Shown here: one piece after another, positions 5,355-23,044 of the stretch
How positions within the stretch are numbered: the stretch's first letter is position 1
Layout: every line of letters starts with the position of its first letter
Virus record (IMG/VR): IMGVR_UViG_3300043419_000194
Coordinates: 1 to 23,313 of that record
Strand: one strand, 5' to 3'
Length of the DNA stretch: 23,313 nucleotides
Source: a virus
Program-made: the position numbers and the translations under genes
The notes under the pieces: generated by a model
What the model was told of the DNA's origin: nothing
The model's input: the letters and a program-made list of their open reading frames with translations, nothing else
The model's database searches: none

Positions 5355-7379
5355 ATGCAAGCCGAACAAATAGCAAAGGCGCTTGGCAACGCAAAGAGAA
5401 CAGGGCAGGGCTGGTTAGCCAGTTGCCCATTACCCACACACGGGCAAGGCAACGGTGACAAGAACCCTAGTCTCAGCATTAGTGACGGTGAGGACGGTAA
5501 GCCTTTATTCAAATGCCATGGTGGGTGTGAGCAGCACGATGTCTTTGAAGCCATAAAGAACTTTGGACTCTTACCCGACCTTGAGCCTAGACCTGAACCT
5601 CTGAGCAGCCTGAAGCCAATCCAGACAACCTTAGAGCAGGAGTGGCACTACACGGACGAGGACGGTGTGACGCAGTTCATCAAGCAGCGTTACAAGACCA
5701 ATGACCACAAGGGCAAGACTTACAAACTCCTAAAAGTGGACGATCAAGGCAAGAGACACGCCACGATGCTCGGCGCGAACATCGTCCCGTACAACCTGCC
5801 AGCCTTAGAAGAAGCCAGAGAGCTGAACAAAGTCGTATTCCTCACGGAAGGCGAGAAGGCAGCGGACGCGCTCTCGTCAATAGGCATGACAGCCACAACC
5901 ACGCACGCAGGTGCTGGCAGCTTCCCAGAGGATGCCATCCAGTACTTCGTGAACCTCAACATCGTCATCGTCCCTGACTGCGATAAGGTGGGTTGGGAGT
6001 ACGCCAAGAAAGCCACCAAAGCGATCAAGACCATTGCCAAGTCGATCAGGACTCTGGACCTTGAACTCGAGCACAAGGAAGACGCTTACGAGTATGTCCA
6101 TAAGTACGGCGGCACAAAGAACAAGCTGCAAGACTTGGTGAAGCAGTACGCAGTCAAAGTGACAACAGAAGATGAGGTCACGATTCCTGCACGATTCAAG
6201 GAAGTGGAAGAAAAAGCAACAGAGCCACAGGAAGAACTCAAACCAATCAGGCAAGGCTTCCAGATCGAAGCGTGGGATGACATCAAGGACGAGCCTGTCG
6301 ATTGGCTCATCGAAGGCGTTATCCCTAAGAAAGCATTTGTAGCCCTTTACGCGCCACCTGCCAGCTTCAAGTCATTTGTAGCCCTAGACATTGCAGAGTG
6401 CATCGCCACGACCAGACCATTCTTAGGCAAGGAAGTCAAGCAGCAAGGCGCGGTCCTGTATATCGCAGGTGAAGGTCACGGCGGTATCGGGGCGCGTATT
6501 AAGGCACTAAAACTGCACCACGACACGCCACAAGGAGCGCCTGTCTATTTCCTCAGAAGGCAAGTCAACCTGAGATCAAGCCAGCAGGACATACAAGACT
6601 TGGCACAAGCCATTGACGAGCTGCAAGCCATTCAAGGCATCCAGTTCCAGCTAATCGTGATCGACACATTAGCCAGAGCCTTTGGCGGTGGCAATGAGAA
6701 CGCGTCAGAGGACATGGGAGCATTCATCACGGCAGCAGGTGCAATCCAGCAGCGGTACGACTCGGCGCTCTTAGTAGTTCACCACGCAGGTAAGGACGCA
6801 ACGAAGGGTCTACGAGGTCACAGCAGCTTGCTAGGCGCTGTGGACACAGAGCTAGAGATCATAAGAATTGAGGACGCGCCCAAGGGAATCCTGCACATCA
6901 GCAAGCAAAAGGACGGGGAAGACGGGCAGCGCATGGGCTTCCAAATGGTCACCGTGGACATTGGAACTAGTGCTCTAGGCTTTGAATCTGTGACCAGTTT
7001 GGCGCTGGAATTGGACGGTGAAATGGATGTCAATCAGTCCCGCGGCGGTCCAAGAGAACAACCAAAACGAGCAGGTTTAGGGCAAAACAATCAGCTTGCG
7101 CTTAAGGCTTTGCACGCTGCAATTAAGAAGTTTGGCTCAATGGAACAGGTCGATGGCAAGCGCAACAAGTGCATCAAGATAGAGCAATGGCGCTTGGAAT
7201 TTAAGTCAATAGTAGGCAATGACACAGATGCCGAAACACTCAAAAAGCTATGGTGGCGGGTCAAGACGCAACTGCTTAACGCCAAAAAAGTTGAGCTTCA
7301 TGGCGATTGGTGTTGGGCTGTTTTTGATGACAACGAGCAAAAAGATAGTGAGTTTGGAAAGGTCATTCCAATCAAATAA
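5355..7379 (+). CDS. Primase-helicase (zinc-binding, TOPRIM and RepA-like AAA domains)
   Basis: A 674-aa replication protein. Residues 20-60 hold a CHC2-type zinc site (C24, H29, C54, C58 in LFKCHGGC). A TOPRIM-like domain follows: VFLTEGEKAADAL (E165) and VIVPDCDKVGW (D208, D210), the acidic residues of primase catalysis. From about residue 310 a RecA/RepA-like ATPase (AAA_25 type) has Walker A LYAPPASFKSF (K339), Walker B LIVIDTLARAFGGG (D437) and VVHHAGKDATKGLRGHSS. The Walker A has Phe instead of the usual Gly before Lys, a variant I recall from other phage RepA-like helicases. The C-terminus (600-674) may bind DNA. It should prime and unwind at the phage fork. The repeat cluster directly downstream may be its control site or origin. 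Confidence 0.9.
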   Translation: MQAEQIAKALGNAKRTGQGWLASCPLPTHGQGNGDKNPSLSISDGEDGKPLFKCHGGCEQHDVFEAIKNFGLLPDLEPRPEPLSSLKPIQTTLEQEWHYTDEDGVTQFIKQRYKTNDHKGKTYKLLKVDDQGKRHATMLGANIVPYNLPALEEARELNKVVFLTEGEKAADALSSIGMTATTTHAGAGSFPEDAIQYFVNLNIVIVPDCDKVGWEYAKKATKAIKTIAKSIRTLDLELEHKEDAYEYVHKYGGTKNKLQDLVKQYAVKVTTEDEVTIPARFKEVEEKATEPQEELKPIRQGFQIEAWDDIKDEPVDWLIEGVIPKKAFVALYAPPASFKSFVALDIAECIATTRPFLGKEVKQQGAVLYIAGEGHGGIGARIKALKLHHDTPQGAPVYFLRRQVNLRSSQQDIQDLAQAIDELQAIQGIQFQLIVIDTLARAFGGGNENASEDMGAFITAAGAIQQRYDSALLVVHHAGKDATKGLRGHSSLLGAVDTELEIIRIEDAPKGILHISKQKDGEDGQRMGFQMVTVDIGTSALGFESVTSLALELDGEMDVNQSRGGPREQPKRAGLGQNNQLALKALHAAIKKFGSMEQVDGKRNKCIKIEQWRLEFKSIVGNDTDAETLKKLWWRVKTQLLNAKKVELHGDWCWAVFDDNEQKDSEFGKVIPIK

Positions 7380-7487
7380 GGTCTACATATGGTCTACATA
7401 TGGTCTACATATGTGGACATCATGTGTAGACCACAAACAGGTCTACATATGGGGTGCGGGTCTATATACCGCACCCATATGTGGACC
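7380..7487. repeat. Cluster of 11-bp direct and inverted repeats (GGTCTACATAT)
   Basis: Four direct copies of GGTCTACATAT at 7380-7390, 7391-7401, 7402-7412 and 7440-7450; the first three are exactly head to tail, one helical turn apart. Inverted or near-inverted copies lie at 7409-7419 (ATATGTGGACA), 7422-7432 (ATGTGTAGACC) and 7477-7487 (ATATGTGGACC). The copies at 7440 and 7477 are the ends of a long imperfect hairpin (GGTCTACATAT-GGGGTGCGG against CCGCACCC-ATATGTGGACC). The block starts right after the primase-helicase stop codon. It looks like a protein-binding array: iterons of an origin or a multi-site operator. Confidence 0.8.
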
Positions 7488-7539
7488 ATGTGACCATGAA
7501 AAGTGACCTATTTTGTAAGAAAACTGTAAGGAAGTAAAA

Positions 7540-8226
7540 ATGCAAAAGAAACTGAGTAAAGCGTTGAAAAAGATCGAGCAACCAAGTTTCCCGATTGACC
7601 CGTTTGAGGCAGTCATGCGATCAGGGTTGATTGACCTCAAGGTCGTGAAGAATAACCACGAGAAACGGTGGGGTATTAACCGAGTCATCGAGTTGGTGGA
7701 TTCCGAGCTCCGAATCAAGTTCTGGAAACAGTCGGAACGAATCTTCGATGCACAGGTCAAGCGAGATGAGGTCAGGTTCGAGAAAGCAATCCAAGGGATG
7801 AAGAATGCCTACGCAGCGTTAGACCGTTGGGCTGAGGCACACGGCGTTCAGCCTGTGCCAGAGATCAAGGCTTGCGAGTTGCAGATGCAAGACGGGTCGG
7901 TCATGGTCGTTGTCGAGACGCAGCACGATGCAGAGCTGTATCAGCAGTTCAGACCCGATGTCTTGAACCGTCACATCTGGACGATGCAGGAGCTTGAGGT
8001 CATCATGGAGTCACCCGTCATCAAGGAAACCATGAAAATCAAAGCCTTGCACCCAACTGCAAACCTCGTCAGACTCGACAAAGACCCTGTGAAGTTTCCC
8101 CATGCTGGCGAGACAGGACTCGATGACATGAAATCGGATGAATTGGAAGGTGAACCGATGAAGAAGGTGTTTGACACTTCTAAAATGCCCAAGAAGGCAT
8201 CAAATCGTGCGTTAGAGGCGTTTTAA
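7540..8226 (+). CDS. Conserved phage protein of unknown function (228 aa)
   Basis: Begins MQKKLSKALKKIEQP, with a good ribosome binding site (AAGGAAG) about 6 bases before the ATG. The product is a soluble, helical, charged protein with a segment LRIKFWKQSERIFDAQVKRDEVRFEKAIQGMKNAYAALDRW broken by no known motif, then a beta-type stretch (MQDGSVMVVVETQHDAELY) and a Lys-rich tail ending NRALEAF. I recall similar proteins just upstream of terminase genes in other phages, without function. It lies between the repeat cluster and terS. Confidence 0.7.
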   Translation: MQKKLSKALKKIEQPSFPIDPFEAVMRSGLIDLKVVKNNHEKRWGINRVIELVDSELRIKFWKQSERIFDAQVKRDEVRFEKAIQGMKNAYAALDRWAEAHGVQPVPEIKACELQMQDGSVMVVVETQHDAELYQQFRPDVLNRHIWTMQELEVIMESPVIKETMKIKALHPTANLVRLDKDPVKFPHAGETGLDDMKSDELEGEPMKKVFDTSKMPKKASNRALEAF

Positions 8227-8283: not shown

Positions 8284-8715
8284 ATGGCTGGACAAAAAAA
8301 GAAACACGCAGACATGGCGTTACTGGACTCGCTGCCAAAGGAGCAGATTCAGGCTTTGTTTGAGGCTGGAGCTAGCGAAGCAAAGATTTGCTACCAGCTT
8401 GGAATCGGCAAAAAGGCGCTTCATGCGTGGTTAGAACGCCCAGAGCAAGAGGGCTTCCTATATCGCGCGCGTGCGAAGGCCGCCGATCACCTCGTGGCAG
8501 AGACGATTGAGATCGCTGATGAAACCGACATTGAGGAGGTCAACAAAGCCCGTCTGCGCGTGCAAACGCGCCAATGGGTCGCTGAACGCTGGAATCCGCA
8601 AGCCTACGCGCAGAGCAAGCAGCCAAGCGTGCAAGTGAATCTGTCTGGCATGAGGCTGGACGCGCTTCGCCATATCGAGGTCGTGGAGCAAGTATCCACA
8701 GATGACAAGGCGTAA
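8284..8715 (+). CDS. terS: Terminase small subunit
   Basis: A 143-aa protein with an N-terminal helix-turn-helix (about residues 27-50, EAGASEAKICYQLGIGKKALHAW) for DNA recognition and the stretch ADETDIEEVNKARLRVQTRQWVAERWNPQAYA, which is characteristic of Sf6/P22-like small terminases (R-L-R-V-x-T-R-x-W). It binds the packaging site and regulates the large subunit. A GGAGAG ribosome binding site precedes the ATG. It is followed, after an unusually long gap, by terL. Confidence 0.85.
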   Translation: MAGQKKKHADMALLDSLPKEQIQALFEAGASEAKICYQLGIGKKALHAWLERPEQEGFLYRARAKAADHLVAETIEIADETDIEEVNKARLRVQTRQWVAERWNPQAYAQSKQPSVQVNLSGMRLDALRHIEVVEQVSTDDKA

Positions 8716-19982: not shown

Positions 19983-21278
19983 ATGGCAGATACCACAACG
20001 AGCAATTTATCGCTTACCAAACCAGAGGTCGGTGCGTCAACCGATTCGTGGGGTGGCAAACTAAACACCAACCTTGATACGCTTGACGGTATCTTCAAGG
20101 CTGATGGCACAGGCACATCTGTTGGTCTTAATGTTGGCTCTGGTAAGAAGCTGATTACTACCGATGATGCAACCATTGCTGGTTTACGAGTCGGCAAAGG
20201 CGCTGGCTCAGTAGCTACAAACACCGCTGTTGGTGCTAGTGCTTTGGCGGGAAATAGTACTGGAGCAACAAATACTGCAATTGGTTATCAAGCTGGTTTG
20301 GTAAGCACGGTTTCAAACCAAACTTTTATTGGATACGCAGCAGGTGTTGCAACTACAACGGGGGCTGCAAATACTGCGTTGGGTTCTATTGCTTTATACA
20401 CAAACACAACTGGCGCAAACAATGTGGCGCTAGGCGCTGCTGCTCTTTACTCCAACACCACAGGACCACAAAACACGGCTGTTGGTTATCAGGCTCTTTA
20501 CTCCAACACCACAACACAAGACAGCACTGCAGTTGGTTTTCAGGCGGGTTATTCAAACACCAGTCGAAGTAACGCATTTATAGGAGCATTTGCTGGATAC
20601 TCTGCAACTTCTGGTGGGTTCAATACTTTTGTTGGGTGTAGCTCTGGGGATTTGATAACTACGGGAGCAAAAAACACCATCCTTGGCCGCTACAACGGCA
20701 ACCAAGGCAGCTTAGACATTCGCACATCAAGCAACCGCATCGTGCTGTCTGATGGGGATGGGAATCCTACTTGGTCTTGGGATGGTAGTGGAGCATGGTC
20801 TGTTCGTGGTACTTCATCAACAGATACTGGTGCAATTCGCTTTAGAAATAGCTCGTTTACTAAGTATTGGGATATTGCAACTAACGATGGTACTTTCTTT
20901 ATTGCTGATTCTGATTTTTCTCACTACGCTTATCTCTTACAAAACATGACTTCTTGGGGCTTTGGCTCTGATAGACGCATGAAGAAAGACATTGTTGATC
21001 TTGACTATGGTCTTAATGCTGTAATGGCAATGAAGCCAAAGCGTTATACATTTATCGCATCTGGGAAAGAGGATATTGGTTTTATTGCTCAAGAGCTAAA
21101 AGAGATTGTCCCAGAAGCTGTGTCTGGTGAGGAAATTGAATACTTAGATACAGACACACCACAAGAACGAGCATCTAAGTCTTTGGGTATTGGGAAAGAA
21201 CTTTTGATTCCTGTTTTGGTTAAAGCCATCCAAGAACTCAAAGCAGAATTTGACGCATACAAGGAAGCACACCCATGA
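19983..21278 (+). CDS. Tail fibre with C-terminal S74 intramolecular chaperone
   Basis: A 431-aa protein. The N-terminus ([20 protein letters not shown]) resembles a virion-attachment domain. Residues about 80-235 are YadA-like beta-roll repeats (NTAVGxxAL, SNTTG), three of them with an exact 17-residue period (134-184). The C-terminus (329-431) is an S74/endosialidase chaperone: [20 protein letters not shown] with the Ser329-Lys334 pair, then [17 protein letters not shown]74 domains drive trimer folding and then cut themselves off before the Ser. The mature fibre would be about 328 residues and bind the host surface. GAGG precedes the ATG. Confidence 0.88.
20383..20535 (+). repeat. 51-bp tandem repeats inside the S74 fibre gene
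   Basis: A perfect 21-bp direct repeat lies at 20442-20462 and 20493-20513, 51 bp apart, inside three 17-codon units (residues 134-184 of the fibre). Such DNA identity lets units be gained or lost by recombination or slippage, changing fibre length. Confidence 0.65.
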
Positions 21279-22555: not shown

Positions 22556-23044
22556 ATGGCACTAACCAGAAGCGAGATGGAGATCATTATCAAGAAGCGT
22601 GCTGCTGTCTTGCTCATCATATTGGCTGCATTGGTAGCCATTAACAGCTTTTTCAAGGACAGCAACTCTGGTCGCATCATGAAGGACATCATTGCTGCCA
22701 ACAATCAATGGGCTTGGTATCAAGCCAAGAATGTGCGTGCTGCCATTTACAAGACAACTGCTGACCTAGTGGATGACAAGAAGCTGTCGCAGCACTATCA
22801 CGGTGAAGCGCAGCGCATGAACGCTGACATGGAAGAGATCAAGGCACGCGCTGTGGCTTTGGAAACTGAGCAAAAGCAGTTATCAGCCAAGTCACCTTAT
22901 TACACATATTCAGCAATGCTGATGCAGTTGGGTTTGGTGCTTTCTACCGCAGCGATTCTTGCTGTGTCTATGCCTTTGTTTTATGCTGCCGTGGCTGTTG
23001 GCTCGTCAGGTGTTTTATTGTTTGTAATTGCTTTAGGGGTCTAA
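22556..23044 (+). CDS. Membrane protein of the DUF4337 type
   Basis: A 162-aa protein with an N-terminal membrane helix (16-32, AAVLLIILAALVAIN), a polar middle with NNQWAWYQAKNVRAAIYK, the hallmark segment of DUF4337 proteins, and two C-terminal membrane helices (117-137 and 140-160). The function of DUF4337 proteins is not known; in phages they are seen near lysis genes. The ATG follows the upstream TAA directly. Its neighbours on both sides are membrane-related. Confidence 0.75.
   Translation: MALTRSEMEIIIKKRAAVLLIILAALVAINSFFKDSNSGRIMKDIIAANNQWAWYQAKNVRAAIYKTTADLVDDKKLSQHYHGEAQRMNADMEEIKARAVALETEQKQLSAKSPYYTYSAMLMQLGLVLSTAAILAVSMPLFYAAVAVGSSGVLLFVIALGV

Follow-up and report, generated by a model that had tools for sequence, protein, structure and literature searches.

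An iteron and hairpin array behind a phage primase-helicase gene: a probable replication origin exchanged together with the C-terminal domain of the protein

The window, which is the whole stretch of DNA analysed, is an IMG/VR virus record of 23,313 bp. It encodes SU10-like portal and capsid proteins and is probably a partial genome, because two circular relatives are larger (~35.5 and 36.3 kb). The gene for a 674-residue primase-helicase is followed, in an intergenic gap inside an operon, by a 108-bp repeat array and then by the gene for a 228-residue protein that matched no known family in Pfam and PHROG searches. The latter gene adjoins the array in all relatives read, and its product could be a replication partner. 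Elsewhere in the window, two 51-bp tandem copies, 83% alike (20442-20545), lie within a gene with a C-terminal Peptidase_S74 domain (chaperone of endosialidase), and a DUF4337 protein (22556-23044; Pfam E 7.7e-26) is encoded near the contig end. The features of the locus are as follows.

5355..7379, + strand, primase-helicase gene, 674 aa, initiator candidate (PHROG, Pfam AAA_25, primase motifs)
6267..6800, + strand, RecA-fold helicase domain, residues 305-482 (AAA_25 PF13481, E 2.6e-42)
7083..7319, + strand, predicted C-terminal winged-helix domain, residues 577-655, candidate iteron reader (AlphaFold2, fold match, covariation)
7380..7390, + strand, iteron 1, exact GGTCTACATAT
7391..7401, + strand, iteron 2, exact GGTCTACATAT
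7402..7412, + strand, iteron 3, exact GGTCTACATAT
7409..7419, - strand, inverted iteron copy, 2 mismatches
7422..7432, - strand, inverted iteron copy, 1 mismatch, 3' arm of hairpin I
7380..7432, + strand, hairpin I, formed by the head-to-tail copies and the inverted copy at 7422 (folding)
7440..7450, + strand, iteron 4, exact GGTCTACATAT, 5' arm of hairpin II
7459..7469, + strand, diverged direct copy, 2 mismatches, apex of hairpin II
7477..7487, - strand, inverted iteron copy, 1 mismatch, 3' arm of hairpin II
7437..7491, + strand, hairpin II (folding; stem conserved by compensatory changes)
7452..7476, + strand, hairpin II inner stem and apex, GGGTGCGG[GTCTATATA]CCGCACCC, retained within lineages through iteron exchange
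7492..7539, + strand, short leader, A+T-rich stretch and ribosome-binding site of the 228-aa gene (sequence)
7540..8226, + strand, next gene, 228 aa (family searches, conserved neighbour)
8284-8715, small terminase gene, Sf6-like, ~0.9 kb downstream of the array

Besides four exact copies of GGTCTACATAT, the array contains a diverged direct copy, three copies in inverted orientation and a pair of hairpins. Iterons 1 to 3 run head to tail at 11-bp spacing. The original prediction, made from the sequence of the window, had described these three copies, the fourth at 7440 and three inverted or near-inverted copies, and the coordinates bear it out in each case (the inverted copies lie at 7409-7419, 7422-7432 and 7477-7487). 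It had also recognized the 48-base hairpin at 7440-7487, which stands, but had missed the second hairpin at 7380-7432. With up to two mismatches allowed, GGTCTACATAT has 14 matches in the window, eight of them inside the 108-bp array; shuffled windows have 2.8 on average and 9 at most, and none of 100 shuffles reaches 14. The single-stranded DNA fold of the array has an energy of -36.5 kcal/mol, compared to -14.6 for shuffles (z = -8.7). No T-run or other terminator-like site was found at the array, the lack of a T-run having been noted before, and the locus does not qualify as an intrinsic terminator, for which a GC-rich hairpin with a T-run behind it is expected. A sigma-70-like promoter was not found at the array either. 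The A+T-rich leader at 7492..7539 is, judging from its composition, a possible unwinding region.

The 674-residue protein matches the DNA primase/helicase and polymerase/primase families of PHROG and AAA_25 of Pfam. The zinc and TOPRIM primase motifs (C24/H29/C54/C58, EGEK and DxD), assigned by motif inference, are invariant in 21 sequences. The best fold match of the helicase domain is RSF1010 RepA (1g8y). Residues 577-655 are predicted by AlphaFold2 to form a winged helix, with the order helix, strands, helix, helix, wing (H-bb-H-H-wing). The closest solved folds are CRP and GlxR, with the ORC winged helices lower in the list, and the fold scores are modest (best E 0.035, probability 0.99). 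Sequence searches of Pfam, PHROG and the PDB returned nothing significant for this domain.

A scan of viral contigs yielded 80 relatives and a second scan added more; 95 loci, 52-96% identical, could be read downstream of the gene, and 45 remained after near-copies had been removed. Conservation in relatives, on which the original prediction had staked its case, was looked for, and the array is kept in all 95 usable relatives, with the same anatomy and in the same place directly 3' of the primase-helicase gene. It begins right behind the stop codon or, in some relatives, overlaps the last codons. In L075 (4190-4330) and L114 (3395-3500) the reading frame of the primase-helicase extends 42-72 nt into the array, so that iterons encode the last residues. 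The order is always that of direct copies, an inverted copy closing hairpin I, a spacer, hairpin II and the ribosome-binding site of the next gene, and the arms of hairpin II are one direct and one inverted copy. Relatives differ in the number of copies and in their spacing. Intervals of 8, 10 and 11 bp occur, hence the exact 11-bp phase of the window is not general, and the earlier argument from it, that one protein occupies one face of the DNA, fails. In five relatives (L011, L018, L021, L080 and L112) the first 80-150 bp after the stop codon contain additional iterons together with an A+T-rich insert, and the main array follows.

The repeat unit itself depends on the lineage, and about nine types are found: GTCTACATATG; GGGACAAATGG or GGTGGACAAATGG; GATAGACGAATGG and GATAGATAGAT; GGAGACGAATGG; GGTCAAATCG; GGTCGAATCG; GTGACGAATCG; TGTGTCAAA; and GGGACAAATCG. 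The copies are degenerate in six of the 45 loci (L003, L006, L008, L015, L016 and L025), where no 8-mer occurs more than twice and hairpin II is kept. The exact units are confined to the array in 10 of 10 contigs. Contigs carrying the exact double repeat of the window were considered as other carriers of the repeat, and this was rejected, for in 6 of 6 the primase-helicase gene lies directly upstream.

The unit follows the C-terminal ~110 residues of the primase-helicase, not the rest of the protein or the neighboring gene. Mean pairwise identity along the protein falls to 33-50% in the C-terminal part. Similarity of the arrays correlates with C-terminal identity (r = 0.70), and the partial correlation is 0.50 for the C-terminus given the N-terminus (none of 2000 permutations is as high), compared to -0.01 for the N-terminus given the C-terminus. 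The correlation of the array with the downstream protein is 0.03. When the comparison is restricted to pairs whose N-termini are at least 85% identical, the correlation between array distance and C-terminal identity is -0.70. Linked inheritance accounts for part of the correlation between domain and array. The original prediction had named the primase-helicase, a 99-aa protein and an HTH protein for binding tests; the C-terminal domain of the primase-helicase, which covaries with the repeats, is the likely binder of the iterons, not the other two proteins.

The C-terminal domain and the array have been swapped together, repeatedly. Relatives L026 and L067 are 91% identical in the N-terminus and 89% in the downstream protein, whereas their C-terminal domains are 34% identical and their repeats differ. 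By sliding identity, the exchanged block starts ~400 bp ahead of the stop codon and ends ~170 bp beyond it, and the flanks are mostly 85-98% identical (the window or L007 compared to L013; L020/L021 compared to L022). The repeat type has to change 15 times on the N-terminal tree and 10 times on the C-terminal one, the minimum being 8; the GTCTACATATG type forms a single clade in the latter and requires 5 changes in the former. L022 and L020 have identical hairpin II apices, and in L022 the iteron arms on both sides of the apex have switched to the GGACA type. Hitch-hiking of one linked block is therefore insufficient as an explanation, because the iterons of L022 changed on either side of an unchanged apex.

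The stem of hairpin II is maintained by compensatory changes. In three clades taken singly, 94-97% of the stem cells pair, compared to 28-57% in slid versions, and 7, 8 and 9 stem pairs, respectively, have changed on both sides. Among the cells that are not Watson-Crick pairs on the top strand, 32 are G.T (at 11 pair positions) and one is A.C, the rest being other mismatches; with the apical pairs left out the counts are 19 and 1 cells at 9 and 1 positions, and a part of the G.T excess is inherited or near the apex. A role as a palindrome only predicts equal numbers of G.T and A.C, and thus the stem probably works as a single top strand, either DNA or RNA.

The layout is also found directly behind distant relatives of the primase-helicase in six types of isolated phages, each with its own unit, as listed below.

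Roseobacter phage CRP-406, unit GGCTGGAAATG
Roseobacter phages CRP-821/831, unit GTATAAA
Roseobacter phages CRP-811/823, unit CTACAAA
Alteromonas phage XX1924, unit GGTTCAC
Salicola phage CGphi29, unit GGGGACA
Idiomarinaceae phage 1N2-2, unit CGGTACA

All six arrays fold better than shuffles (z from -4.3 to -7.4). The commonest 7-mer beats all 100 shuffles in five of them, and in CGphi29 it is above the mean and not the maximum. Cassette exchange has occurred among the cultured Roseobacter phages as well: CRP-811/823 and CRP-821/831 are 96-100% identical in the helicase core and 80-98% in the next gene, whereas the C-terminal domain is 60-88% identical, depending on the block, and the array 47-69%. 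The layout was judged by eye to be present in 24 of 26 contigs related to phage 1N2-2, 20 of which contain a 7-mer at least five times. Their units include GCCCCCT, GGTACATT, GCGTAAC, GGGAAAA and GACCCCC, and the hairpin apex tends to remain CCTTTAGG. The motif CTTTAG is found on the top strand in 14 of 25 of these arrays, on the reverse strand in 3 and in a control stretch in 1. No significant array was detected in the relative from a Salmonella houtenae prophage. One of two Manatee Spring phages likewise shows no significant array, and the other has repeats within the gene instead.

As in iteron origins, several direct copies of a short unit lie beside the gene of a candidate initiator. The original prediction had left the choice between an origin with iterons and a complex operator. 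The origin is now favored, though not by the 11-bp phase, because the position and anatomy of the array are conserved in every readable relative, because the array accompanies the primase-helicase gene even when the downstream genes are different, and because the array sequence and a single domain of the primase-helicase change together. The region 7380-7491 most likely serves as the replication origin of the phage or, at a minimum, as the site where its initiator is loaded, with the iterons and hairpin read by the C-terminus of the primase-helicase. GC skew, which had been proposed as a check, does not change sign at the array in any of ten contigs, of which two are circular; without a flip it is uninformative as an origin marker. 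The missing flip, the related phages that have no significant array behind the gene and the modest fold matches of the C-terminal domain count against the origin reading.

In the mechanism that we infer, the C-terminal winged helix would bind the direct and inverted GGTCTACATAT iterons in the 3' flank of its own gene, which would concentrate and load the RecA-fold helicase ring. Local unwinding would then allow the top strand to fold into hairpin II, with priming by the TOPRIM primase domain at or near the exposed hairpin, so that replication would start at the array. One protein would thus be initiator, helicase and primase, with the origin adjoining its gene. Because such an origin lies beside the gene of a single-protein initiator, the C-terminal domain and the array would constitute a specificity cassette of ~550 bp, exchanged by recombination.

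An operator only, with the winged helix regulating transcription across the replication-packaging boundary and copying starting elsewhere, is an unlikely role for the array. Its place in an intergenic gap within an operon would suit such a role, and arrays of direct and inverted sites are typical of operators too; iteron sites can serve both purposes. However, the array is behind the gene, not ahead of it, and has no promoter-like site; the downstream genes vary between phage families, whereas the array stays with the primase-helicase; and the compensatory top-strand hairpin would be left unexplained. The tolerance of G.T in that hairpin, together with the probable transcription of the region, would agree with hairpins that act as RNA in the message, as a stabilizer, a processing site or a translation control of the next gene. 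This is less probable still, as it does not explain direct repeats that follow a DNA-binding-like domain, and no Rfam family was found, the best matches being far below gathering scores.

The Sf6-like small terminase gene ~0.9 kb downstream might indicate a packaging (pac/cos) site. However, the arrays of the Roseobacter, Alteromonas and Salicola phages adjoin the primase-helicase gene and have neighbors not annotated as terminase, and the array tracks the C-terminal domain, not the downstream protein. A packaging site was rejected on these grounds and has only a minimal chance of being correct. Hardly any weight can be given either to a tandem repeat, neutral or selfish, that travels with the gene's 3' end. 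Although copy number and spacing vary among relatives and the cassette moves as a block, such a repeat would not be expected to keep its anatomy in two phage families with unrelated units, to change its stem in a compensatory manner, or to retain its apex while the flanking iterons change.

An origin is thus the preferred reading, and several known systems resemble it in part. In lambdoid phages a type-specific O initiator and its iterons are inherited jointly as a module; the origin lies inside the O gene, and O loads the host helicase. The putative initiator and the iterons travel as a module here as well, whereas the array is behind the gene and the helicase is in the same protein. A comparable position to that of the lambda origin inside O is seen in L087 (2967-3082; MW202711.1), where a repA-like gene contains five TGAACGTGCG-like repeats, most of them spaced by 15 bp.

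The array-protein pair, as read here, works like P4 alpha and pRN1 and is a member of neither system, because its helicase has the RecA fold and is not SF3. The P4 helicase belongs to SF3 and the P4 origin is bipartite, whereas the helicase of the present protein resembles RSF1010 RepA and DnaB, and its gene is followed by one compact array that includes hairpins. Both proteins combine a TOPRIM-type primase, a helicase and a winged helix in one iteron binder, as P4 alpha is summarized in PMC4234260; the binding is putative here. The Sulfolobus plasmid pRN1 encodes a multi-domain primase-helicase with a C-terminal winged helix, and the stem-loop behind its gene, which is required for replication, functions when moved elsewhere on the plasmid and is conserved in structure, not in sequence, between conserved flanks (PMC4234260). 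The plasmid and phage BIP-1 share with the present locus the joining of primase, helicase and C-terminal winged helix (predicted here) in one protein, an origin (putative here) directly 3' of the gene, and a long stem-loop of changing sequence and conserved structure (PMC4234260). However, pRN1 has an archaeo-eukaryotic primase, an SF3 helicase and no iterons (PMC4234260), whereas here the primase is of the TOPRIM type, the helicase has the RecA fold, and iterons are located inside and beside the hairpins. The oriV of RSF1010 resembles the array in its iterons and short hairpins and in its RepA-fold helicase (here by fold match). In RSF1010, priming occurs on these short hairpins and three proteins, RepA, RepC and RepB', are used with a separate iteron binder (PMC4234260), whereas here a single protein would do the work of all three, the primase and the putative iteron reader being in one gene. 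In the PLE satellites of Vibrio the DNA-binding domain of the initiator likewise changes in step with the iterons, the remainder of the protein being conserved, and the RepA-ori module has been swapped repeatedly (PMC8263062). They differ in that their RepA_N initiator includes neither a primase nor a helicase, and in having iterons of ~30 bp and another fold and layout (PMC8263062).

No description of such an origin was found in the open-access papers searched, and neither 'iteron' nor 'origin of replication' occurs in the text of the Roseobacter phage paper. This kind of putative origin is widespread among phages and apparently undescribed. The analysis provides a predicted origin for a large and common group of metagenomic phages and also for the cultured Roseobacter CRP, Alteromonas XX1924, Idiomarinaceae 1N2-2 and Salicola CGphi29 phages, for which no described origin was found in these papers. 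The specificity of phage replication is seen to move as a cassette made of a DNA-reading domain and its target; the repeats and the DNA-reading end of the protein change together like an exchangeable lock and key, and this kind of origin is now directly testable.

Extra copies of the lambda origin in a cell block the replication of lambda (PMC4488673), which by analogy suggests a possible reason for the diversification of origins. A broader proposal, which we consider tentative and somewhat more apt to be wrong than right, is that this large phage group has a two-part origin lock. Variable iterons, read by a rapidly changing and exchangeable C-terminal domain, would flank a hairpin apex that stays constant on the top strand (CCTTTAGG in one family) and serves the conserved core of the primase-helicase. 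Rivalry during co-infection or origin-directed defence would cause the lock to be replaced time after time, and the recognition helix would be decodable. The letters of that helix are residues 626-645 of the primase-helicase. KKAW seems to accompany GGGACAAAT in proteins of the L012/L025 type as well as in those of the distant L119 type, and GTCTACAT seems to go with K-L-W/F-W; this possible recognition code is a lead. The naturally matched pairs of domain and repeat come near to a ready-made experiment on winged-helix recognition, and bear also on what drives the diversification of phage origins.

In cellular genomes a scan with the single protein gave no relatives of the primase-helicase, and an alignment scan gave distant relatives only, with best segments of 23-42% identity. 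About 1 kb behind a distant primase relative in a Bacteroidota MAG (L103, 9900-10090) there are TGTGGTAA/TTACCACA repeats, which are perhaps another iteron array.
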